From contig NC_037598.1 of NCBI RefSeq assembly GCF_003073045.1, positions 8,672,342 to 8,736,341 on the forward strand: a DNA stretch of 64,000 nucleotides. The letters run 5' to 3'. Under the pieces are notes generated by a model. The model was not told the origin of the DNA. It did not search any database and saw only the letters and a program-made list of their open reading frames with translations. Below, in pieces: positions 42,153 through 64,000 of this stretch. Both the position numbers and the translations under genes were made by a program. This stretch comes from Pomacea canaliculata (taxonomy: Eukaryota; Mollusca; Gastropoda; Architaenioglossa; Ampullariidae). Position 1 is the stretch's first letter; every line of letters starts with the position of its first letter.

Positions 42153-42926
42153 AGTAGTTGTAGTACAACGACGACGATGATGATACAATGTACTATAACA
42201 CTTTGTAGGCAAGAATTTTGTTCGCATGTTTAAAGTAACTGTCGGTTTTATAATGTATAAGTTGGGTGTTCGTTTTTTAGAGCTCGCCCCTAACTGTAAC
42301 ACACGTAAGCACTGCTTGTGTAGATATTTGAGACGCCGTAAAGACCAGCACCATGAACCTGATGCCAGAGAACAAAGCGTGGCTGTAATGGTTACAGAGG
42401 TCAGAGGTGACACCTTGCAACATTCGTCAGCTCCTGCTGCTCAAACATCAGGTATTTATATGTAATATAAATAATGTCAAACCACCCGTCTAAGTATTTA
42501 CTTCGTTGTTTACGAAAGTGAAAACCAAGATTTGAAACCAGCTTGGTAAGTACCCAGCAAGTCAGATTGACCATGTTTTTAGAAATTAGTCTAAATGTCC
42601 ACATGAAATATTTCACTAAGAAAAAAGGGCAAGAATGAATCAAACTTTAAGTCTTACTGCGTTTTGTTAAATAACCGACAACAGTGAAAATATTGTATAA
42701 CAGTAATGAATCAATTTTGATTATCGGTAATACTAAACTTATTCGTTTGTGTCCAGCAGGAGAGGGGAGGTATCCTCCATCTTGTAAAGGGTTTGAAGAA
42801 AGTAATATCGTGGGTCAGAGCAAGGTCCACATTCCAAAGAAGACAGGAAATGGTTACAAGCCTTTTCCCGTACGGAAAAAGATAGCTTCCGACCCAGACG
42901 ACATCTATGAGAACGAAGAATACTAG
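37462..42926 (+). CDS. Gene B: FTP-lectin/EGF/EGF/TM receptor, 9 coding exons
   Basis: Predicted 408-residue type I membrane protein. Coding exons: 37462-37543, 38191-38265, 38916-39158, 39887-40081, 40352-40450, 40591-40716, 41823-41934, 42324-42451, 42760-42926. All junctions are in frame, with phases as in gene A. Order: signal peptide (1-27), Cys module CACKNYGSC (28-52), FTP domain (53-198; NVALGMPAT, CLAVNGKRNT, WEVDLGEPY, LTGQTVRLSK, LTVCEVEVWG), first EGF-like module CLPGFFGPDC (199-231), a second EGF-like module absent from gene A (232-273), membrane helix at about 288-311, and tail with RRRKDQHHEP, YKPFP and C-terminal DDIYENEEY. The acceptor at 42323 was chosen over the one at 42280 because only it keeps frame and aligns with gene A. 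Ligand and signalling partner unknown. Confidence 0.82.
40851..40935. repeat. AT-rich A/AAT low-complexity run
   Basis: An A-rich run of AAAT/AAT units lies in the gene B intron after the second EGF-like exon. The same intron holds a hairpin at about 41403-41462, where CTAGGGGAG and GGTAAC pair with their complements. Confidence 0.7.
42108..42152. repeat. (GAT)n microsatellite
   Basis: About 15 uninterrupted GAT triplets lie in the intron between the membrane exon and the first tail exon of gene B. Confidence 0.95.
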
Positions 42927-45348
42927 GAAATGGTTTAATCTGTTTATTTGCTTCTGAAATAGACGAAAAAAACAGCAAACATTTCGTTGATCTACTGCGG
43001 GTGTTGCACACCTACCCGCATCTCTGAGACGAGATGTGGACAAAACATCCACGACCCTCACTGTTGGTGCCTGGAGCCTTTTCTTGTTATTGTAGATACA
43101 TGTACATACGCATTCTGTAAACACAGCCTTACTCTGCTGAATGTTTCACGATGTCACAATATTTAATATAGTTTAAAATGTGTTTTACACCATTTTTTAC
43201 GAATTTTGTACACAAAAAACTTCCACTGCTGTGTAGTGTACACATTGACTTCTTATAATGTGCACATAAGTAATATTTTTCTATTTTTCGAGATATACAT
43301 ACGTTTTTACATGCTGGTTAATCGAAGCAAAAATTAAGCTAGAGAGAAGTTTAAACTAACTGATTAGAAAACTGTGATTAGAAAAATAATTATTTCATCT
43401 CCATTATACAACTTCATACAATGTCCTATGTATCCAGTCCCAGAGACAAGTATGGTGTAAGACAGAGCATGTTTATCATTAACAAATCAATCAGCTTAAG
43501 ATGTACTATCAAAAGAATGAAAATTAACTTCATATGAGAGAAGACTTTTCAAGAATCTTACATAGTGTATACTTGTACTCTATAATAACTTGTGGCTGCC
43601 ACAGTCTACAGCAACTAAGCTGCTTTTCTGTGTAAATGTGAAGCCACTGTGCAGTTCTGTGTTCACACATTCACAGGTTTTGAAAGCAGATGCTTTTCAG
43701 TCGATCACCGTGTACCAGAACTGTCCAAATATTAATTTCTTGAGGCACACATTTATTGCTATATAATTCTGTTCTTGTGCAAATATGGTAATTAATTATA
43801 CAGGATCCCGAGCAGTTAATTTTTTATTGCGTGAAATCCAAAACTTCCCAAAAAGAAATGATCGGTATTTGTCTTATGTTTAGAAAAATCATTTACGATT
43901 ATGCATTGTTTTGGCAGAAAATACAAACTTAATACTAAAACATAGACAATGCAGACTTATATATATATATCTTGCTTCTCATGGCTGACTCATAAAATAT
44001 GTCAAACAATATATCATTAGTGATTTATTAACAGTGTGTAATATGTCTCCAAACCCAATCATTAATTAAATGGATGAAAGTTGATTACACAGAAGTAACA
44101 CCAGAGTATTGATGGCAGCATAAAGACAAAGTTACATGGTCTTGTTACAGGCAGGTCCAAGAAAGAATAAAATGCACTTGATTTACTGTTTTCTAAAGCT
44201 TGCCAAAAGATTTTCTGGCTTCATAATGACCGGACTTCAGAAAGCAAACATTGTATGGTTGGTCCATTCAGCAGACAATTCTGTCACATCTCCTCAGGTT
44301 GAGCATCTAGCATCGGATGCTGAAATAAACATATGATTGTATGCAGCAACACTCGGGATAGCTTTGCTATAATAACCAAGTGTGAAATATACCACACAAA
44401 TTAAAAATACCTGTTTCTTTTTAAAAAAATGACAATCTCTCACGAAGCACAAATGAAAGTGTATATTCCATATACTGTGTTAGCAAAAAAAAAAAAAAAA
44501 AACAAAACAAAACCAAAGGGAGGCAAGTGTACATGTGGCAGGCATTTAACAAGTTGTGTCTAATTAGTTGCTGATTGTAAGACAGTCTCACAGAGAACTA
44601 TCTTTAATACATACTAGCAGAGATAAAGGTTAAAATCGTTGTATTCTAGATTACAAATGTAGGGACACATTCGTGTCGATGCCACTAGGGAATAGGGAAC
44701 CTTTTAGGATTTTCTACTTGTACACCTTTATTAGAGCTGAGTTATCGAAGTCGATAAAGTCAAATATTTAGAAACTGCTGGACAGCAATAACTGTCAATG
44801 GTAGTAACGAAGTGGGCCAATTAGCTCCCTTATTCATCAGTCTGTAAAATTAATTAACCCGGCTAATATGTGTTTTACTTGTCAATTTATTTCAAAGTTT
44901 ACTCTGTTTTGTGGGAATAAGATTTCCTATGGCCTGACTCATGTAAATGTAGCCCTATTATATTAAATCATATTAGTCTTAGGTTTATGATGGTACTAGC
45001 AGTATAAGAAAGAAAAATATTACATGAAGAGAAAGTGAAACAACATACATTATACTTGAATATGTTAATTTCTCATTTGGACTAACAAAGTACAATGAAG
45101 AATTTCTTGAAGAACTGTTTACATAATCAAAGAGTGGCAGGACTTTCATCAGGACTTTAAACACAAAAATGGAAATACCTGACTTGATATGTTTCCCCAT
45201 GACTACTTCCAGGTTTTGGAGCTGCTTGAGCTGCCGAAGGTTGAAAGTTTCACGACTGAACTCTGTCAACAGACCTTCATCGGCTACAGTATTGTATTAG
45301 AATCCTCCTGGTGGTCTTAAAAGCATCCCCCCGCCAAATACACGCACA

Positions 45349-46947: not shown

Positions 46948-47065
46948 CCCAAACTTCCACTTCGCACACGTTAAGAACATAGAAATGAGTTGTCCTGTTG
47001 TCGTGTTTAGACAACCTAACGGTTTGTCCAGTTAGCGGTGTCCCACACGTGATATTTGACGGATT
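46948..47065 (-). pseudogene. Orphan 3' half of an FTP exon next to a transposon
   Basis: On the minus strand this reads NPSNITCGTPLTG, then QTVRLSKHDN, then VCEVEVWG followed by a good donor (GTAAGCA at 46947-46941). It is the second half of the second FTP exon. Its 5' part is missing: homology stops at about 47065, exactly where the truncated end of the Tigger-like element begins. With no acceptor and no first half it should not be spliced as a lectin exon. It is closer to genes A and B (LTGQTVRLSK) than to the C/D type (LSGQVVRLSK), so it may come from a different unit. Confidence 0.75.
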
Positions 47066-47849
47066 CGGTTAACGAACAAAAATTTCGGTAAAAGTTTGTC
47101 TCGGATAGCGAACAAAATTTCGGATAACGAACAGCCACGTGAACAACACGTGACCGACCAGCATGTCATCATTCGCGCTCGAGACACAGTTATGATCGGT
47201 CGTTCCTTATCTGTGCGCATCCTTCTTATTTAGTGATTTGTGTGCTTTATTTTAGTAAGATAATCCTCAATCATGGCTCCAAAGAAGATTAAGAGCAATT
47301 AATAGTAGTGAGGTAATGACAAGGAAGCGGCCAACAAAAGAATTGAAAAAGGAAATGATTTCAAAGTATGAAGGTGGCATGTGTCTGTCAGATATGTGAT
47401 GTCGTATTACTGAAGAGTTTTACAAAAAAAGCAGAAGGAACAGACACTGGACAAGATTTTTGCTTTAACCTCAAAGCTACAGAAAAGGAAGTCACCCCCG
47501 ATTTTATAATGTCACGTGTTCATGGAGGGGGAATCAAAGCAGTAATTCCACCCATCCTCACCACACCTGCTTCCATCCACGCCGTCAAAACGGCAAGTTT
47601 TCTGATGTTTAAATGCTTTCGTTAATGTTTTTATATTTAACTTTATTTAAACTGCATTATAACTGTTCTCATTAAAACAAATACCTATATAGCCTGTAAC
47701 TTTCAAATATTAGCGAGTCAACAGGGGCTGGGAACCAATTAAATCTATTTCCTTTATTTCTTATGGAAAAAATTGTTTCGGATAACGAACATTTCGGATA
47801 ACGAACAGCTTTCCAGAACGGATTAAGTTCGTTAACCGAGGTTCCACTG
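47066..47849 (+). mobile_element. Decayed Tigger/pogo-like transposon in gene C
   Basis: The right end is complete: its inverted repeat closes at 47849, reads CAGTGGAACCTCGGTTAACG on the minus strand, and is followed by TA. The left end keeps only the inner part (CGGTTAACGAAC from 47067) and has lost the outer ten or so bases. Inside, the plus strand has a MAPKKIKSN start (47273) followed by stops, and a second frame MTRKRPTKEL...YEGG (47316) like the N-terminal helix-turn-helix of Tigger transposases. The catalytic part is missing, so it cannot move by itself. Its minus strand supplies a stop codon and an AATAAA to gene C. Confidence 0.85.
47753..47758 (-). promoter_or_regulatory. Candidate poly(A) signal inside the transposon
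   Basis: TTTATT on the plus strand is AATAAA on the minus strand, 74 bases after the predicted stop of gene C (47834-47832). Another lies at 47642-47647. Both belong to the Tigger-like element and fit a transposon-derived 3' end for gene C. Confidence 0.4.
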
Positions 47850-50800
47850 TACATGGCCCTGACATGTACAGTTTAAAACTGAAACCCAAAAGCCTTGTTA
47901 TGTTTGATTATACCTCATAGAGTATATTTATATATACTCCATGCAAACCTTTCTCTAAGTCTTCCCTTTTGTATTTTTTTGGACATGAAGAGGGACAAAG
48001 AAAAAAAAAAGAAAGAAAAATAGAACGATAGAAAAAGAAGGGAAAGAAAATCTGTTCTTCTTGTATTCTTAATATGGTAAATATTTGAGGTCATTGTTTC
48101 TATTAATAATACGGAATGATTAAAAGCATCTACATGTATTCTATGGTTACATTATTTAAATTAAAATGAGGAGCCCATCAATTAATTCAACCAATCTTGT
48201 GTTAGAGAGAAACGTTTTTCTTACCCGTCACTTCAACTTCACACAAAGTGAGATAGTAGTTATTTCTAGTCGTGTAGTCAGTTTTTGACAACCTAACGAC
48301 CTGTCCAGAAAGTCTCTGATAACAGGTTATTGTTGAGGGATTAGAAAGTGGATGTTCGAAGATGTAACACAGCTCTCCATCAACGGTTACTTTGACGTCA
48401 ACATTGCGTTGAAATTCTGAAAAAATGACATGGACCGTGCATTGAGCCTTGAGGAGTAGTCGGGAAGCAAAAGCAAGTCGTTGTCCATAAGAAGAATTGG
48501 GAAATCATGGACAAACGTTTTGTCTACAAAGCGACCAGTTCGTGCCGACAATGTTTTGTTTTCTCATACTTAACAAATCTTTTCCAATGTCATTAAACTA
48601 TGGTACAAGAAATAAACCGTCTTCTGGACGCTATTGGATAGATGCTGATGACATTAACCCTGATAAAGGACGCAATATTTTGAGTCTTCCTGGACACCAC
48701 CTTATTTTTCTTAAAAAATATAATCTAGGAATGTCTAAATATGTTGGAAATACAGACAATGGTATCAGCTTATCCTGCATTTAAAACAGTTATTTTTCTA
48801 ACATCTTCTGTTTTATACATTTCTAGCATTCTTTGAACAATGTGGATATTCTCTTTCTTGTCTGTCACCTGACAAAGATACATAAACTGTAGTTCATAAC
48901 CCTAGAATTCTTCATATTTATTAATAAAAATACATACAGTTCATATGTTTCAGCAGTATCAAAATTTTATGATATCTTGATGCAAGTGTAGTTAACATAG
49001 GGTGATCGTGTAGGTATAGAGGAAGGTAGATCATATATTGTCAGTTGTCAACTAACACTAATGTGAAAATTTGTATCTAGATAATGACCTACACATGTGT
49101 CCCAGCCCTCCCCACCACACAGACCTACAGATGTGTCCTGATCTACCCACCACACTGAAAAAAGAGAAAAAACCCAAAGAGCTCTAGATATACAGAATAC
49201 CAAGGAAAAAAAGCTAAATGTGAAAGAACTTCAACACAAAAGATGTGACAACGACCAAAGAAAGATTAGTACCTGAATCTCTCCAGTAGACGGTGATGCT
49301 TGCTATATTATACAGGTCACACAGGTCAACCTCCCAGTAGGGTTCACGGTCGTCTTCTGCAGTGTGCATACAGCTAGGATTGTGAGGAAAATCGTTACAA
49401 GGTGCGAATCCTGTGTTTCTGTCACCATTTACAGCCAGACAAGCGGGACCAGAGACCGCATTAAACCGTGTACTGTTGAACAATGAACTCGCTCTTGCCG
49501 GTTTGCCTAGCGCTACATTTCCTGCACAAACAAAAGAAATACAACATACTCTACTCCCTAAACAATGATAAACAAGAGCGAGTGGTTCAAATACATCTGG
49601 TAGATACAATTCGTCGATCTTAATCTTGCAATGATCTGTTTTCATGCAATGTGCAGTCTAACTACAAAAGTAAGAAGCAATTTTTGTTAAGGATTCGATT
49701 AAAATGCTTATTGATTTGACAACTTGTAAAAAATAAGAAAGCGAGAAGCTAAAACATACGTGTATTGTAGAGATTGTCTCGAGAATCGTTTCTCTGATAG
49801 CCGCAAGATCCTTGTACAGGACCCTGACATGTACAGTTCGAACCTGAAACCAAATGCGTTGTTTTTGGTTGATATGATTGTTGCCTGCAAGCTTACTCCA
49901 TTGTCATTTCCTTTCTCATTATTTTAGTCTTACATCGGATGCTTTCTTTAGTGAAGTCCCCGTTACCGCCAGGTAATTCGACTGGTAAAAATTTTACCAC
50001 GTCACAAGAATATTAAACAGGATGTTGAATATTTATTCGGACATCTGTATTTAAGCACTCAGCCATCCGCTTTTTATAGCATGTGTTACGTTTTCAGTAA
50101 CGTTAGTAAACGGACACAAAAATTTAACTGCTTGTTATCTCTCTCTCCACTTCAAAGCTGCACCGACTCGCCATCTACAACCAACAGATAAAGCTGACTC
50201 CCATGTGTTTCCTTGTCATCCGCCAGACAAATCCTGTATTTTTCGTCCTCTAACCCAAACTTCCAGATGTTAACCACCAACTCCATGACACAACGCGTCT
50301 GGCGTCAATACCTAATTTCGTAACATAATGACGTCAATACCTAATTTCGTAGCATAATGACGTCAATACTTAATTTCGTAACAGCATGTATAAATTTATA
50401 ACAGTCCAGCGATGTTATGTTTAGGTTAAAAAAGCTGTTAGGACAGGGTAGGGACTAGTAATAAGGTAAATTCACCTTGTCAAGAATTTAACAAACGTTT
50501 ACTGCAGTCTATGGGAAGGTGGTATAAGGGTTCATTTACTCCTCCGCATAAGAGCGATTGTGAAAGTGAAAGTGAAAGTTGCTGTAGTTATGGATGTGCT
50601 TGTCTTTTGTTTATGTTTATCTCGGTTGTGAATTCCCCTGCGAAGCCTTTCTAACCTAAAAATATAAATATTGAAGAAAAAACGTTTTTGTACTGCGAAG
50701 TACTTTGTGGATTCGAATGTTTGATGAGTGTGGACATTAAGAGAGAGAGAGAGACAAAGTTTGTTTCCTTGGAAGTAATGAATTTTGTCGGGAAATAACA

Positions 50801-51506
50801 ATTGTTAGTTTTGTTAGTTTTCTTGGTGTGACATGGATGGCTCATTCTGCGCGATTAAAATACACAAATATCCCTAAAAAAATCCTAGTTATTAGTCAAC
50901 ATATAATACTCTATAAGTAGCTGGTTAAACCAGTTTAAATAAACTACCATAATGAGGAAGCCGAGCCAAAAGATATACCTAATACTAGTTACCATGCCAG
51001 AACAAAATATATTATCTGTAGCTGGGCTTTTTTATTGTTCTCTTCTCCCTTTGAAAGACGCACAGCTTCATTCCTGTATCTTTGGGGACCGCAATCGCAT
51101 GCTCTGAAAGCGCCATACTGTCAAGACCACTCATCCGGAAACCTACTAAATAACGAAGCTTAGTGTAGGTGGATATCTAAGAAAATTAGTAACCAATAAA
51201 ACTTCAACTAAAAGGCACAGAGACACAGCAAACCACATCGCCACTGAGCGCAACAATGGAGGAGAAAATCCTTTCTCAAATTAACCCGAGAAAGTGGCTT
51301 CGTCTCACAGTTATTTAATTTGAATCACATTATCAGCAATATGTAAATAGTATTATTAAAAAGCATGATAATATTCATTCTACCTTCAAAAAGGACAGCC
51401 TACCCTTACCTGTTACAGCAACAGACGCAGAAGTCAATAGCAGAGCAAGCCAGAGCCAGAGCCAGAGCCGCTCTCCCTGACAATGACCGCCGTCCTGTGG
51501 ATCCAT
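47832..51506 (-). CDS. Gene C: short FTP lectin, 3' end in a transposon
   Basis: Coding exons: 51506-51410 (signal peptide), 49843-49760 (Cys module CTCQGPVQGSC), 49521-49273 and 48416-48225 (the two FTP halves: NVALGKPAR, CLAVNGDRNT, WEVDLCDLY; then TVDGELCYIF, LSGQVVRLSK, LTLCEVEVTG), and 47878-47832. All four junctions are phase 1. The last exon starts as a second Cys module (LNCTCQGHV), crosses into the transposon end and stops there after QWNLG. Predicted product 222 residues with signal peptide and one lectin domain but no EGF or membrane part, so it is probably secreted. The signal peptide has a Leu-Trp repeat from a CTCTGG hexamer. An alternative is a pseudogene that is not expressed. 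The front of gene D is its closest relative. Confidence 0.62.
49760..51281 (-). repeat. Segmental duplicate of 63291-64000
   Basis: The Cys-module exon and the intron before it match 63291-64000 closely in both exon and intron sequence, down to phrases such as AACATATAATACTCTATAA and GCATGCTCTGAA. The copy here carries about 795 extra bases (about 49908-50703) that the other lacks. Gene C and the front of gene D therefore come from one duplication. Confidence 0.85.
50303..50387. repeat. 29-bp minisatellite with CRE palindromes at the junctions
   Basis: Three units of CGTCAATACCTAATTTCGTA plus nine further bases (50303, 50332, 50361). Each internal junction creates TGACGTCA (50329-50336 and 50358-50365). 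It lies in the part of gene C intron 1 that gene D lacks. Confidence 0.85.
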
Positions 51507-55085: not shown

Positions 55086-55919
55086 TTATATCATCTCTTC
55101 GCACTCTTCATCGTCAGAAGAGCTCGCTTTGGGGACGGTGACGACCTTGTGCTGAGACCAGCGAATGGGAAAAGGTTTGTAAATATTTTTCTTCTTCTTT
55201 GGGATCAGGACCTCCAGGCTCGGACTCATCCTGGCGTTGACGTATTCTCGAGACTCGCCATCAAGATGAGGGCGTCGCTCACCTCCTGCTGCAATCATAG
55301 CGGATCCTGTGCAGAGAAAACAATTACTATTTTTTGATATTGGTGTTTCCAGAACTATAAGAAACTAATGAATTAAAAACTTTTAAAGGACTTTTGAGAC
55401 GAAAATGAGTTCTAAATATTTTCAGGAACCTGACCTTAAGGGTTTATCTCGTTATCATAGATGTCTGCAAACATCACTAGACTGAATCAGGTCAACAACA
55501 GAAATGTTTACACAAGCTTGCTGTTACCTTGTGAAGTTGGAGAAAAACATTTGTATATCAACTATTAGTGTATATAGTAACGTGTCTCTCCTACACCCTT
55601 CTCTCTCACATACATACACACACACCTTTTTCAGGTAAAAGCAAGCAACTGTGTATGGATGGTGAGTATATCTATCTATTGTACCTTCTCTTGTGCACTT
55701 ATAGAAAAAAATCTAACCCCTGTCCAAAAATTTACCAGTGACTAACTTAGTTGCTTGAAACACTTACCTGAACTTTGAGCAGCGCCAGGTGGCGAAGCCT
55801 GAGTTGACTCCCAGACCTCTGTCATGCTGACGTCACCACTTTGTGGGCTTACGTGACGTCCACGTTGCGTAGCTTGAACACGTGTCAGCCTCCTGCAAGC
55901 TCCCGGGTGCCGGAAACAC
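55086..55919 (-). CDS. Two cytoplasmic-tail exons of a lectin receptor
   Basis: Exons 55919-55768 (phase 2-1) and 55306-55086 (phase 1 to stop TAA) have strong acceptors (CTCTTTTAG, CTCTGCACAG) and the donor GTAAGTG. They match the tail exons of genes A and B in phase and content. The first ends TEVWESTQASPPGAAQSSG (gene B: AAQTSG). The second has SREYVNARM, VLIPKKKKN, IYKPFP and a Ser/Asp/Glu-rich C-terminus. No membrane exon was recognised upstream before 59376, so these are either the true end of gene D with its membrane exon missed, or a remnant of another copy. The tail would be intracellular. Confidence 0.6.
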
Positions 55920-57466
55920 CTAAAAGAGAATTGAGGGGGACACACGTATGAGAAACTTTAATGGGAATGTAAACAGAAAGTAAACAGTAAATTTTACTTA
56001 CAGCTACATGGGGATGAACCAAGTTTTTACATCAATAAATATGTATCAAATCATTACATTCTATTTTTAGTGGTAAAATTGTCTTTATCAGCAGTCAGTT
56101 GTAAATATAAAATAAAAATACAATGCTGGAAGTTAACCATCCACCAAATAACAAAATTACAAGAGTTCATCTTAACAAACGCGCGCGTCAAACGTATGTA
56201 TACTTTATAATGCACCTGGAAAAATTAGCTCCCCTTAGTGACAGACAATCAACAATAACACAAGGTAGACCATGAACGTAGATCTCCTGGACCGATGGCA
56301 GACGATTTTTTTCACTTAACTGCTAGAACGAGGCGATCGTGTGCTCAGAACTTCCGGTTAAGCCTACCATGGTTTAGCGAAGGACTACAATGGCTATGTC
56401 AGCAAAATCTGCAAGAGTAACAACAATAAAGAAACGCACAAAAGGCGGTTGATACTGCTGCTGGTAGAATGTAACTGCAAGTATCAAATCGTTCGGTGTA
56501 AGTTTTTTTCCGCTTCCGCGAGCAGGAATATCGACAGATCAAGACAAGTGGCGAGCGGCTCTCATTTATGCTACAGGTCACGAACGTGTCTATTAGTTCG
56601 TTATCAGACACAAGTTTCAATTTACTGACAGCCAAGATTTGTTCAAGGCACTTGGAAGAAGAATGTATTAAAAAAGGTACTGATCTTATTTACCTCTTAC
56701 TCGTCTTTGTCCTGTTCATGCTATAGTTCGCGACTATAAGGCGACAATTTTCACATAGCCAAGGATATGCCCATTAAAAAAAAAAAATCAAATTTTGTTA
56801 TTAATAATCGTGTCATTCATTACATTACTTGAGAAGTGTATTGATTAAATATTCTTCTTACTGTTTTTAAAAACTCGCTGTATATGAATACGCCTAGATC
56901 AACATTAGTGCTTTCAGTTCACACACAGAGATGATTTAAGATGTTTCTTATGCTGAAAACCAGTATTAGAGGTTTTAAATAAAAAAACGAAAATATCTAA
57001 ATTTATATAAAATTTATATAAAAGCGAGAGACCGAGGTGAAGCATATAAGCAAACACTTCATGATTCTAGATCTAGAAGTTTAAATGCGATTCATATTAT
57101 TTATTATTTCATACAAAAGATTTCCGACTAGTGAAGCAAATACTTTTGTGTTCTAAACAGATACGAGTTTGGTTAAAAATGCAAACAAGCAATACACTTA
57201 CGGTAATTATATTGTTGATATCAAACGTCTCATTAAATTCCATTTTCGCGCTGCTCTTCCGGAAGTACGATTTTAATCTGGTTCGCCGAGACTGACCGCG
57301 GATCACTTCGCAAGAGGCCGACAGTGAGTCTCGGCGTACAGACATCAGTCCACCTATCTACGTCCATGGGAGAACTTTTCAGCCTTTAAAGGGAAGTAAT
57401 CAATGGAGGAACAAGTCCTAAAGGTTCCAGTGTAGCCTCCCTTATGTATTTATTCATTTACGCACA

Positions 57467-57520
57467 GGGTTACAAATTAAGACACTACACTGGTTACCGC
57501 AGTGTCTTAATTTGTAACCC
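57467..57520. repeat. Perfect 20-bp stem hairpin
   Basis: GGGTTACAAATTAAGACACT (57467-57486) and its exact reverse complement (57501-57520) flank a 14-base loop. CACAG/CTGTG extends the stem across a bulge. Confidence 0.92.
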
Positions 57521-57559
57521 CGGGCTGTGGGTGAGGGGCCCATTACTAGAAGCCATTTC

Positions 57560-57577
57560 CCCTCAGCCGGCTGAGGG
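57560..57577. repeat. 18-bp perfect palindrome
   Basis: CCCTCAGCCGGCTGAGGG reads the same on both strands, 40 bases after the hairpin at 57467-57520. The surrounding 57521-57600 is GC-rich relative to its flanks. Confidence 0.92.
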
Positions 57578-57891
57578 AGCATGGCGATTGTGATAAAGTT
57601 TTACAGAGACTTTTTAGCAACTAAAAATGTGAGAGGAATAAGCTTAAATTTTCTTAATTGTTAGACACACAGTCAAAGGTACAGTAAAGTATGTGGCTGT
57701 TAGTACCACCCAGAATGAGGAGCATTTCAAGATTTTCCAGGTCAACATCTCCATTAACAACGTGCATAGTGTCACGTGAGTGACATATTTCTGTAGCTAC
57801 TGGTAAGTATGATCTTAACGAGTCACTAAGTGCCAAGGATGGCACCATGTCTACATTTACAGACTATTTCAGTTCTTGGTATTTATTATAA

Positions 57892-58027
57892 TTATTCAGT
57901 ATTTATTATCAGTCGATCTCGTGTCAGAGTCAAAGGCTCTCGACTGCTCTGGTCTGTTGGAGGTAAACATTTCCTTTCCTCTCTGGAACAAAGATCCTGT
58001 TCTGACTCTGACTCATGTTGACGTCGT
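57892..58027 (-). CDS. Possible tail exon of another lectin-receptor copy
   Basis: After a good acceptor (GTTTGTCTTCAG) the minus strand reads, in phase 2, RRQHESESEQDLCSREE...RDRLIINTE and a stop at 57894-57892. The start resembles the first tail exon of genes A and B (RARNHQHEP, RRRKDQHHEP). No donor continues it, so it would be a terminal exon or a decayed one. The match is short. Confidence 0.33.
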
Positions 58028-58716
58028 CTGAAGACAAACACCCCCTCAGTAGTACTGTGGTCAATTAGTAAATATATTGAGTATTCTTTAATATTCAAAT
58101 ATTTTCATAAACAGTTATTTTTTTAATAAACTTTAAAGTCAGTTAGTCAAGTTAAAGACGGACGTACAGTTAATATGCTCCTACGTGCACATAAACTTAA
58201 CAAATAAAGTTTCTGCAAAACCGTCAATCTTGGACTTAATAAATAATATTTAGCACTTACATTCATATTAGATTGGGGGAATTTTTGGCTGCAGACCACT
58301 AGATCATATATTTTAAAAAATTATTCTTCTTAATCAAAGCTTGTAAGACTGCCTGTGCATTAAAGTATTTAGTTTAAAAAGAATAAATGAAAATACCTAG
58401 TGATATTCCTCCTGTCATTTTCACTGTGCTTCACGGACAGCGTTCATGTCGAGTATTTGCAAACCATAGTGAGACTCCCGCGAATCGTAGAAAGGGAGCT
58501 TAATCCAGTTCGACACCTGACGTTTGATACGTTGCGGGATTTACCTCCCTTCGGACATCAAAGTTGGACGAAACGTGTTCTCACTAATGTTAAATTCTTT
58601 TTGCATATGATGAACAGGCAACATTTAGAATGTTGTTATTTCTCTCACCTATAGCTGTGCCTTTATAATTAAAAAAAAAAAATCCTCATAGCATTTAATT
58701 GCCATAAAATCTTCGT

Positions 58717-59188
58717 TTAAAAGTAAAAATAAGATGTGGCTCCATAATCGTGGCTCCACTCTATATCACCTGCACTGGCAAAATTATCACCACCTTCATC
58801 TTCGTCTGATAATTCACTGGTGGTAGCACAGACATTAGCTGCTGAGTATTCTTCTTCAAGAAACTCTTCTACTTTCTCCAGGGTAATATACTTTCTTCGT
58901 ACGTTTCACTGAAAAGATAAATAAGTCTTATTTAAGTTCAAGGAACTGTATGCACTTCATTATCTAAAAATCCAATTTATAGGAGGGTGGATAATGAAGT
59001 GATGTTGCGTTTTTGTTCGTGTTATAGGAATAAAATTGAGAAATAGGATCATGTGGATAGTTTACTTACATGGCATCAGTACCTTTGTCTCTGCAGACAA
59101 GCACAACGCTTGCAGACTTGCCGTCACTTGTAGCGAACGTCACAAGTTCAAAACGCAACTTGTCGCACACGTTACATGCCACACGGCA
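58717..59188 (-). other. Unassigned exon-like segment with acidic region
   Basis: Two minus-strand pieces may belong together. One (about 59188-59068) reads VCRVACNVCDKLRFELVTF...VCRDKGTDA and ends at a strong donor GTAAGTAA. The other (to stop at 58719-58717) reads KYITLEKVEEFLEEE, then an acidic SELSDEDEGGDN stretch. An acceptor at CGAAG (about 58900) would join them in frame, but the stronger upstream CTTTTCAG would not. The acidic part recalls the N-terminus of piggyBac-type transposases. No firm family is assigned. Confidence 0.25.
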
Positions 59189-59375
59189 AACTCATCAACA
59201 GCACTACAACAGCTCAGAATTCTCTTTGAATGCGCAGTGATTGCTTCGGTAGATCAGATAGAGGTCTGTGTATACTTGTCTTTTCGATAGAAAAAGGCAA
59301 GTAACGAGTAACATTGAAATATGTACACAGCCAACTGATTCAATGATTAGTTTGTGAGAGAAGCTGTTTTCTTAC

Positions 59376-62300
59376 CCATCACTTCTACTTCACACAAAGT
59401 TAGATAATAGTCATCTGTAGTCATGTAGTCAGTCTTTGAAAACCTAACGGTCTTTCCAGAAAGTCTCTGATAACAGGTTATTGTTGACGGATTAGAAACT
59501 ATATAATCGAAGATGTAACACAGCTTTCCATCAACGGTTACTTTGACGACAGAATTGCGTTGAAAATCTGAAAAAAATGACAGGAAACGTGATTTGTGCC
59601 TAGAGCAGTAGTCGTGAAGCAAGGGCAAGTCATTGACCAGAAGTAAAATTACAAATTCAAGTACAAACATTTTCTCGAAAACCGCTACACACAATGCCGA
59701 TATTTTTTTTCTTATTTTAGACCAGCGAATCTTTCTCAGTGTCATAGAACTATGGTCCTAGGAGTAAAGCGACATCTGGATGCTGTTTGATAACTACACT
59801 ACTAGGGACGCAAAATTTTGAGTCTTTCTGGGCACCACCTTATCTTTCTTAAAAATATAATCGGGGAATATCTGAATATCTTGCAAACATAGAAAATACC
59901 ATCAGTTTATTCTTGACTTAAAACAGTTTGTTTTCTTAAACCTTCTGCTCTTTACTGACTGGAAAAAAAAATGAGAGAAAGACGGAAAAGAGTATAGACA
60001 AAATAGGTGAGACAAAGCTAAAAAAGACAGACTTACAGATGTTTCTATCAACACCCCCCATCATCACACAAACTTATAGATGTGTCCTAATCTACCCACC
60101 ACACTGAAAATGATAGAAAAGGAAAATGATATATATATATAGAATGCCAAGGACAAAAAGATGTGAAACAATTTCTACACAAAAGATGTGACAACGACCA
60201 AAGAAAGATTAGTACTTGAATCTCTCCAGTAGACGGTGATGTTTGCTATACTATACAGGTCACACAGGTCAACCTCCCAGTACGGTTCACGGTCGTCGTC
60301 TGCAGTGTGTATACAGCTGGAATTGTTAGGGAACTGATTACAAGGTCTGAATTCTGTGTTTCTGTCACCATTTACAGCCAGACAAGCAGGACCAGAGACC
60401 TCCTTGTACAATTCATTGTTCAGCAAGGAACTTACTTTTGTCGGTTTGCATAACGCTACATTTTCTGCACAAACAAAACGAAATACAAAATACTCTACTA
60501 CCTTAGCAATGATGATTAAGAAAGACCGGTTTAAATATACAAAGTAGATACACGTCTTTGATGTCAAGTAAATTTGATACGATCTGTCTTTATATTATGT
60601 TCATTTAATTGGCTACAACAGTATGAAATTGTTGTAATAGAATAATGAAAAGTTAATAAGGTCTAAAGTTTAGTAAAAGATTATATTAAAATACTATTAT
60701 TGATTTGACAACTTTTAAAAACCAAGAAAGCGAGAAGCTGAGACATACGTGTGTTGAAAAGACTGGCTCGAAAATCGTCTCTACGATGGTAGCAAGATCC
60801 ATGTACAGGATCCTGACATGTACAGTTTGAACCTGAAACCCAAATGCCTTGTTAAAATGACCACCTTCGCGCCCCCCTTGTAAGCATGTCCCCATCCCCA
60901 GGGTGCACGCCCCACAGGTTGAGAACCGCTGTCTTAGACTATCTAAATATGTTGGAAATACAGATAATGGTATCAGCTTATCCTTCATTTCAAACAGTTA
61001 TATTTCTTACATCTTTTCTTTTCACACATTTCTAGTATTCTTTGAACAATTTGAGTATTCTCTTGTCTGTCCCCTGACAAAGAGACCTATACTGAAGTTC
61101 CTAACCCTAGAATTCTTCATATTTATTTTTAAAAAGACATACAGTTCATATGTTTCAGAAGTATCGAAGTATCGTGTAGGTATAGATGAAGCTAGATCAT
61201 ATATTGTCAGTTATTAACTATCACTAATGTGAAAATTTGTTTCTAGATAATGATTTGAATAAGTGAAGAAAGGCACCGGAATCGAGTACGAACACAACAG
61301 GTGAGTTAAAGCTACAGAAACACGGACCTACAAATGTGTTCCAGCCCTCCCCACCACACAGACCTACAGATGTGTACTGATCTACCCACCACACTGACAA
61401 AGAGAGAAAAAACCCCAAAAGACTCTAGATATATAGAATGCCAAGAACAAAAAGGTGTGAAAGAATTTTCACACAAAAGATGTGACAACGACCAAAGAAA
61501 GATTAGTACCTGAATCTCTCCAGTAGACGGTGATGCTTGCTATACTATACAGGTTACACAGGTCAACCTCCCAGTAGGGTTCACGGTCGCCTTCTGCAGT
61601 GTGTATACAGCTGGGACTGTTAGGGGACATGTTACAAGAGGTGAATGTTGTGTTTCTGTCACCATTTACAGCCAGACAAGCAGGACCAGAGACCGCCTTC
61701 ATCTGTGTGCTGTTCAGCAAGGAACTTACTTTTGTCGGTTTGTCTAGCGCTACATTTTCTGCACAAACAAAACGAAATACAAAATACTCTACTACCTTAG
61801 CAATGATGATTAAGAAAGACCGGTTTATATATACCAAGTAGATACACGTCTTTGATGTCAGGTAAATTTGATACGATCTGTCTTTATATTATGTTCATTT
61901 AATTGGCTACATCAGTATGAAATTGTTGTAATAGAATAATGAAAAGTTAATAAGGTCTAAAGTTTAGTAAAAGATTATATTAAAATACTATTATTGATTT
62001 GACAACTTTTAAAAACCAAGAAAGCGAGAAGCTGAGACATACGTGTGTTGGATAGACTGGCTAGAAAATCGTCTTTACGATGGTCGCAAGATCCATGTAC
62101 ATGTCCATGACATGTACAGTTTGAACCTGAAACCCAAATGCCTTGTTATGTTTGATATGTATTTCTTATACCTCATAGAGTATATACGCTACATGCAAAG
62201 CTTCTTCTAAGTCTTCTCTTTTTCTTTTGGACATGAGGAGGGACAAGAAAAGAAAGAAAGATAAATAGAACGATAGAAAAAGGACAAGAAAGTCTGTTCT

Positions 62301-63374
62301 TCTTGTATTCTTAATATGGCAAATATTCGAGGTCATTATTTCTATTATTAATACGGATTAATCAAAAGCATCTACATATATTCTTTAATTACATTATTTA
62401 AATTAAAATGATGTACCAATCAATTAATTCAACCAATCTTATGTTAAAGAGAAACTTTTTTCTTACCCGTCACTTCAACTTCACACAAAGTAAGATAGTA
62501 GTCATTTATAGTCGTGTAGTCAGTTTTTGACAACCTAACGACCTGTCCAGAAAGTCTCTGATAACAGGTTATTGTTGACGGATTAGAAACTGGATGTGTA
62601 AAGATGTAACACAGCTCTCCATCAACCGTAACATTGACGCCAACATTGCGTTGAGATTCTGAAAAAAAGACAAAGACCATGAATGCCAATAACAAAAAGG
62701 TAAATGTGAAAAAACTTTAACACAAGAGATGTGACAACGACCAAAGAAAGATTAGTACTTGAATCTCTCCAGTAGACGGTGATGCTTGTTATACTATACA
62801 GGTCACACAGGTCAACCTCCCAGTAGGGTTCACGGTCGCCTTCTGCAGTGTGTATACAGCTGGAAGTGTTAGGGAACTGATTACAAGGTCTGAATGTTGT
62901 GTTTCTGTCACCATTTACAGCCAGACAAGCTGGACCAGAGACCTCGTTGAAACTTTCATTGTTGAACAAGGAACTCGCTTTTGTCGGTTTGCCTAGAGCT
63001 ACATTTCCTGCATAAACAAAATGCAATACAAGACGCTCTACTCTTTAAACAACGATAAATAAGAGAGAACGGTTTAAGTACATCTAGTAGATACAATTCG
63101 TCGATCTTAAGTAATCTAGCAAAGATCTGTTTTCATAAAATGTGCTGTCTGACTACAAAACTAAAAAGCAGTTTATATATATATATAGTAACAAGATAGT
63201 GAGGCTAGATGGTTAGTTATAGATTCGATTAAAATGCTTATTGGTTTGACAACTTTTGAAAAATACAAAAATTGAGGAGCTGAAACATACGTGTATTGTA
63301 GAGGTTGTCTCGAGAATCGTGTCTCTGATAGCCGCAAGATCCTTGTACAGGACCCTGACATGTACAGTTCGAAC
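59376..63374 (-). CDS. Gene D: multi-unit FTP lectin, 5' end outside window
   Basis: Eight exons, all phase 1-1, give 461 codons in frame. Unit 1: Cys module 63374-63291, FTP halves 63007-62759 and 62658-62467. Unit 2: Cys module 62126-62043 and first FTP half 61758-61510 only. Unit 3: Cys module 60832-60749, FTP halves 60464-60216 and 59567-59376. Signature phrases recur: NCTCQ...GSC, CLAVNGDRNT, REPYWEVDLC, ITVYWRDS, TVDGELCYIF, LTLCEVEV. The signal-peptide exon should lie just beyond base 64000, judging from gene C. The missing second half in unit 2 coincides with an hAT-like fragment. The exon phases would let unit 2 splice straight to unit 3. Whether a membrane part follows (see 55086-55919) is unresolved. 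Confidence 0.65.
60856..60931 (-). mobile_element. hAT-like transposon end fragment
   Basis: On the minus strand it starts CAGCGGTTCTCAACCTGTGG and continues GGCGTGCACCC...GGGGGGCGCGAAGG, the typical end of hAT/Charlie-type elements. Only about 76 bases remain. To its right the sequence resumes in the middle of the unit 2 intron; to its left it joins the flank of the unit 3 Cys module. The second FTP exon expected between them is absent. Confidence 0.65.
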
Positions 63375-64000
63375 CTGAAACCCAAATGCGTTGTTTTTAG
63401 TTTATATGATTGCTGCCAGCAGTTTTGCTCCATTGTCCTTTGTGGACTCGAATGTTTGATGAGTGTGGTCGTTAAGACAGAGAGAAAGTAAGGTTCCTTG
63501 GAAGCCGTGAATTTTGTTGGGAAATAACAGCAATTCTTAGTTTTGTTAGTTTTCGTGGCGTGACACGAATGGCTCATTCTCCGCAATAAAAATACACAAA
63601 TATCCCTAAAAGATCCCAGTAATAAGTCAACATATAATACTCTATAATTAGCTGGTTAAACGAGTTGAAATAAGCTACCATAAAGAGGAAACCGAGCAAA
63701 AGATATACCTAATATTAGTTACCAGAACAAATAGAACAAATATATTATCAGTAGCTGTGCTTTTTTATTGCTGTCTTCTCCCTTTGAAAGTGCACAGCTT
63801 CATTCCTGTATCTTTGGGGACCTCAATCGCATGCTCTGAACGCGCCATACTGTCATCCGGAAACCGACTAAATAACGAAGCTTAGTGTAGGTCGATATGT
63901 AAGAAAATTATTAACCACTAAAATTCCAGCTAAAAGGCACAGAGACACAGCAAACCACATCGCCACTGAGCACAACATCGGAGGAGAAAATCCTTTCTCA
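63291..64000 (-). repeat. Segmental duplicate of 49760-51281
   Basis: This is the other copy of the duplicated Cys-module exon plus upstream intron. The last 40 bases of the window match 51241-51280 (GGAGAAAATCCTTTCTCA in both). The next feature expected past base 64000 is therefore a signal-peptide exon like 51506-51410. Confidence 0.85.

Follow-up and report, generated by a model that had tools for sequence, protein, structure and literature searches.

Gene C, an F-type-lectin-like gene on the minus strand of contig C9 of Pomacea canaliculata, reads from one of its own exons into a DNA transposon and stops there. This raises the question of whether the element has given the gene a new and usable 3' end, or whether it marks the point at which one copy of a tandem family was broken. 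The window considered here is the whole stretch of DNA analyzed, 64,000 nucleotides (C9:8672342-8736341), and homology searches covered a genome of 440,159,624 bases in 24 contigs. F-type-lectin-like genes form a tandem cluster on both strands, at window positions 33488-64000 and at loci L009-L012 and L015 (C9:8.70-8.78 Mb), and are assembled from signal, Cys, F-type-lectin-like (FTP), EGF, membrane, and tail exons. FTP exons also occur elsewhere on C9 and on C3, C6, C7, C8, C11, and C13. Judged by title, none of the publications listed for Pomacea with Tigger, F-type lectin, or fucolectin concerns gene C.

Exons and lectin-like domain of gene C

Gene C consists of five exons on the minus strand, all open, bounded by canonical AG and GT dinucleotides and joined in phase 1, which give 222 residues followed by TAA. 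The product comprises a leader, a Cys module, a two-exon F-type-lectin-like domain, and the start of a second Cys module. Exon 1 (51410-51506) encodes the hydrophobic leader, assigned as a signal peptide by eye, and is 91% identical to the gene B exon at 64222-64130. The first Cys-module exon (49760-49843, SNCTCQGPVQGSCGYQRNDSRDNLYNT) is 96% identical to its gene B counterpart. The lectin-like domain is encoded by FTP1a (49273-49521) and FTP1b (48225-48416). The last exon, the interrupted second Cys-module exon (Cys2), occupies 47832-47878; its AG lies at 47880-47879, and from 47878 it reads VLNCTCQGHVQWNLG, ending at the TAA at 47834-47832. Positions 47878-47850 are native and positions 47849-47832 are derived from the element. 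The acceptor position, the product length, and the uniform junction phase that had been proposed in the first-pass annotation all hold over the five exons.

The domain encoded by FTP1a and FTP1b matches striped bass FBP32 (3cqo) with an E-value of 6.6e-11 in phmmer, and also matches a fucolectin-related protein (1.6e-4) and eel agglutinin 1k12 (9.2e-4). In Pfam, the two exons together score 35.3 bits with PF22633 (cut-off 27.8) and 28.9 bits with PF00754 (cut-off 28.2). These matches indicate that the domain is homologous to F-type lectins, while sugar binding is putative. The fucose motif of F-type lectins, HX24RXDX4(R/K) according to PMC5712786, does not occur in exactly this form in gene C, where HX27R is followed by R-D-S-E-F-Q-R. 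Of the earlier designation of gene C as a lectin, the relationship by sequence stands, whereas lectin activity is not supported by an exact match to the published motif. In the alignment with FBP32 domain 1, its His and both of its Arg are paired with His and Arg of gene C, whereas the motif Asp two places after Arg and the Cys-Cys pair of F-type lectins are absent. Unlike in FBP32 and eel agglutinin, the domain in gene C is combined with a short Cys module.

A broken Tigger-like element in the second Cys-module exon

The element occupies 786 bp (47064-47849, minus strand) and adjoins, at its intact left end, a TA target dinucleotide at 47850-47851 that marks the passage from native exon to element. 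With up to three mismatches allowed, the window holds a single occurrence of its 22-base terminal repeat, compared with 0.00 occurrences expected from shuffled sequence. Genome-wide, 40 near-full-length matches, the gene C copy included, were found among the 40 candidates scored out of 1003. We fetched 27 of the 39 other near-full-length matches as a comparison set. All 27 are 813-837 bases long and have both terminal repeats with a TA on each side, and 26 of them carry GGTTAAC at the left end. The gene C copy diverges by 2.7% from the family majority, compared with 1.4-3.5% for the other copies, and has six private substitutions.

The proposed identity of the terminal repeat as Tigger-like, and its position immediately after the TA, are borne out both by this repeat family and by transposase-bearing relatives with the same termini. 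Among 30 loci cut out of 62 matches to PF03184, both halves of the gene C element were matched beside a DDE_1 transposase at L046, at L064/L068 (which are one element), and at L065; L052 matches the left half, and L057 and L061 match weakly. The gene C element corresponds to the two ends of such a DDE_1 element joined at about base 455. It is on this shared-terminus evidence that we assign the element as Tigger-like: judged from these matches, it derives from a Tigger-like element by internal deletion and belongs to a non-autonomous family of about 0.83 kb. As in the Tigger/pogo group of Tc1/mariner elements and their short, MITE-like derivatives, there is a TA on both sides (in the 27 copies) and the termini are inverted, starting CAGTGGAACCTCGGTTAACGAAC. 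Unlike complete members of that group, the gene C copy has lost its right end and retains only the left TA. By its alignment with the family, it is a broken member, and it is the family as a whole that is placed in the Tigger/pogo group.

An uninterrupted comparison is provided by gene B, located approximately 14 kb upstream of gene C, whose counterpart of the Cys2 exon is whole (62124-62044). Gene C positions 47843-48442 align with gene B positions 62092-62684 at 86% identity over 610 bases, spanning FTP1b, the intron, and the beginning of the Cys2 exon. The alignment ends at the TA, beyond which gene B continues as a normal exon. The gene B exon reads SNCTCHGHVHGSCDHRKDDFLASLSNT; gene C has the same sequence up to CATGTA and then continues as CAGTGGAACCTCGGTTAAC. 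The first base of the interrupted exon in gene C is T, compared with G after CAG in the other four Cys exons of genes C and B, and this T would make the acceptor slightly poorer. Gene C is most likely a truncated paralogue of this neighboring F-type-lectin-like gene. In gene B itself, which spans window positions 55089-64000, a tandem duplication has produced an additional Cys-FTPa unit that lacks its FTPb exon (61756-61511).

Fusion at the right end and the DNA beyond it

The gene C element stops 41 alignment columns short of the family's right end and so lacks its right terminal repeat; these columns are present in all 27 fetched copies. The element breaks off at GTTCGTTAACCGAA and is followed directly by AATCCGTCAAATATC, which begins the second half of an FTP exon b from another lectin module (46948-47065, minus strand, NPSNITCGTPLTGQTVRLSKHDNRTTHFYVLNVCEVEVW), followed by the donor GTAAGC. 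An AA at 47065-47064 is common to the element end and the half exon, and this 2-base overlap fits end joining. The best relatives of the half exon are other cluster genes (74-75% identity), compared with only 60% identity to FTP1b of gene C itself. With the right end lost and the element fused to a half exon, gene sequence must also be missing, so that a deletion formed part of the event; the simple insertion described in the first-pass annotation is therefore not supported as it stands. In genes D, E, F, and B, the distance from the Cys exon to the corresponding point in FTP exon b is roughly 1.2 to 2.6 kb, and we estimate from this spacing that about 1.2 to 2.6 kb may have been lost.

Two simpler routes to this arrangement were considered and dismissed. 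An uncomplicated insertion of an element complete at both ends is incompatible with the absent right end and with a flank that belongs to a different exon, and after recombination between two copies of the element a terminal repeat should still be present on the right. A search for a displaced right junction, that is, the element end followed by the exon remainder, returned 187 places with up to three mismatches (those with three were listed in part); among the places with up to two mismatches, none lies in the cluster except the left end of the element itself. No orphan second half of the Cys exon was found at E-values up to 1.

It had also been proposed that the insertion would turn a multi-unit lectin, probably anchored in the membrane, into a short secreted protein. 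By homology, cluster genes A, X, D, E, and F contain EGF, membrane, and cytoplasmic exons, and a membrane stretch occurs in these genes and in gene H of the 134-kb stretch. Since related cluster genes have such a stretch, an anchored ancestor of gene C is possible. The proposed conversion finds no counterpart in the DNA downstream of gene C, where neither tblastn nor shuffled local alignment recognized EGF, membrane, or tail exons on the minus strand between 42936 and 46946. For the six queries used, the best scores there were equaled by 12, 16, 48, 98, 120, and 179 of 200 shuffles. The two exons least firmly excluded are a tail-like stretch at 45257-45180 (12/200 shuffles as good) and a membrane-like stretch at 45869-45801 that has stops inside (16/200). 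A hydropathy scan was a weak instrument, as its first form missed both controls and its second missed one of two (D and H were found, and X was missed). Gene B, the closest relative, likewise lends the proposal no support: it keeps two tail exons, at 55897-55766 and 55307-55089 (0/200 shuffles as good for each), and in shuffled local alignment it has no recognizable EGF exon (70/200) or membrane exon (199/200).

Two side observations concern this downstream DNA. The open stretch at 45180-45283 (minus strand) has a faint resemblance to a tail exon and scores 14.6 bits with Recep_L_domain, below the Pfam threshold of 21.8. In the search, the region matched nothing else in the genome except at 42936-43228, which is 86% similar to C9:7387679-7387974, and in seven short matches.

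Origin and possible use of the truncated gene

The explanation that we favor, with a probability of roughly 0.6, is that gene C is a truncated, decaying paralogue whose present 3' part is a by-product of gene damage and has no selected function. A non-autonomous Tigger-like element inserted at a TA in the second Cys-module exon. Later, or during a failed excision of the element, a deletion that began or ended within the element would have taken the right terminal repeat, what was left of the Cys exon, the FTP exon a that came next, and the beginning of an FTP exon b, and the remaining ends would have been joined by end joining on the 2-base overlap. The element has lost an end of its own, which suggests that it was already in place when the deletion occurred. 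If the gene is transcribed, splicing at the Cys2 acceptor would lead into the element and to the TAA at 47834-47832, the message may terminate at the AATAAA of the element, and the product would be a 222-residue protein without a membrane segment.

As had been proposed, the stop is the TAA of the element's GGTTAAC, and this is the only open reading of the Cys2 exon. Read on this strand, the element reaches its first stop at codon 6, 29, or 59, depending on the frame; because any insertion in this orientation would run into a stop within 59 codons, the stop is unremarkable, and its occurrence within six codons in gene C is an accident of frame. The AATAAA at 47753-47758, which starts at 47758, does lie 74 bases past the stop on the same strand, as the first-pass annotation had it. 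It is a family feature (AATAAAGG in 26 of the 27 fetched copies); a second AATAAA, at 47647, is present in at most one of the 27. An AATAAA lies within 74 bases of about 10% of random points on this strand of the cluster, so the arrangement of stop and signal mildly favors a working 3' end.

Comparison of module 1 of genes C and B gives a dN of 0.076, a dS of 0.142, and a dN/dS of 0.54. Together with the open exons and canonical junctions, this ratio points to some constraint on gene C, probably before the insertion and perhaps after it, and counts against decay. Simulation put the neutral chance of acquiring no stop at 0.37 or 0.17 since the split of genes C and B and at 0.83 or 0.52 since the insertion, in a crude model that ignores indels. 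With chances of this size, the open frame says little about the use of gene C after the insertion.

Were the element instead a ready-made terminal exon, a short secreted lectin would be made from gene C and used. The open 222-residue frame, the leader, the phase-1 exons, and the canonical acceptor all fit such a product, and the element supplies both a stop and an AATAAA. Nonsense-mediated decay does not generally apply to a stop in the last exon, and cleavage within the element would place the stop there, so that the message would avoid this fate. The insertion, however, is not clean, the Cys2 acceptor is slightly poorer owing to its T in place of G, and the fucose motif is not matched exactly; we regard this alternative as unlikely, although it ranks second after a decaying paralogue. 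Its more elaborate version, in which gene C encodes a working soluble F-type-lectin-like protein with an element-derived 3' end, stop, and poly(A) signal that would act as a secreted partner of, or decoy to, the membrane-anchored members of the cluster, the change having been fixed by deletion of the alternative 3' part, seems to us a long shot. Transcripts might also extend beyond the element and be spliced at the intact-looking GTAAGC donor after 46948, which would place the TAA about 880 bases before the junction and make the message a target of nonsense-mediated decay. This outcome is improbable, given that no downstream exon of the family was recognized as a splice partner and that AATAAA signals come earlier, inside the element.

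It is also conceivable that the fusion is an artefact of assembly or haplotype and that another haplotype has the element in full or the gene without interruption. The element is repetitive, and alternative heterozygous contigs were filtered in the published P. canaliculata assembly, according to PMC6129957. Against this, the junction is exact to the base and has the 2-base overlap that end joining predicts, and the searches gave neither a displaced right junction in the cluster, among the places with up to two mismatches, nor, at E-values up to 1, an orphan second half of a Cys exon; we consider an artefact very improbable.

Transposon-truncated genes and transposon-derived terminal exons are known in many genomes. 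Gene C resembles them in having a stop, and possibly a poly(A) signal, supplied by an element, and differs from them in the one-ended deletion into the element and in the fused piece of a further exon. As it stands, the locus is a well-resolved case of an insertion and a one-ended deletion that broke a single member of a tandem family, and the uninterrupted copy lies 14 kb away. If the product is made, it would be a dated case of a DNA transposon turning a repeat-unit, receptor-type gene into a single-unit soluble protein, and such a conversion would lie in an expanding immune-type cluster.

Elsewhere in the cluster, L012:3040-5013 (97040-99013 in window numbering) has EGF, membrane, and tail exons with no FTP exons of its own nearby; its EGF frame contains a stop, and it is perhaps a relic gene. 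The tail exons at 42822-42923 (plus strand) and 55089-55307 (minus strand) and those in L010 and L012 terminate in acidic tyrosine motifs, DDIYENEEY and DDEEYEEMI among them, and look like signaling tails.
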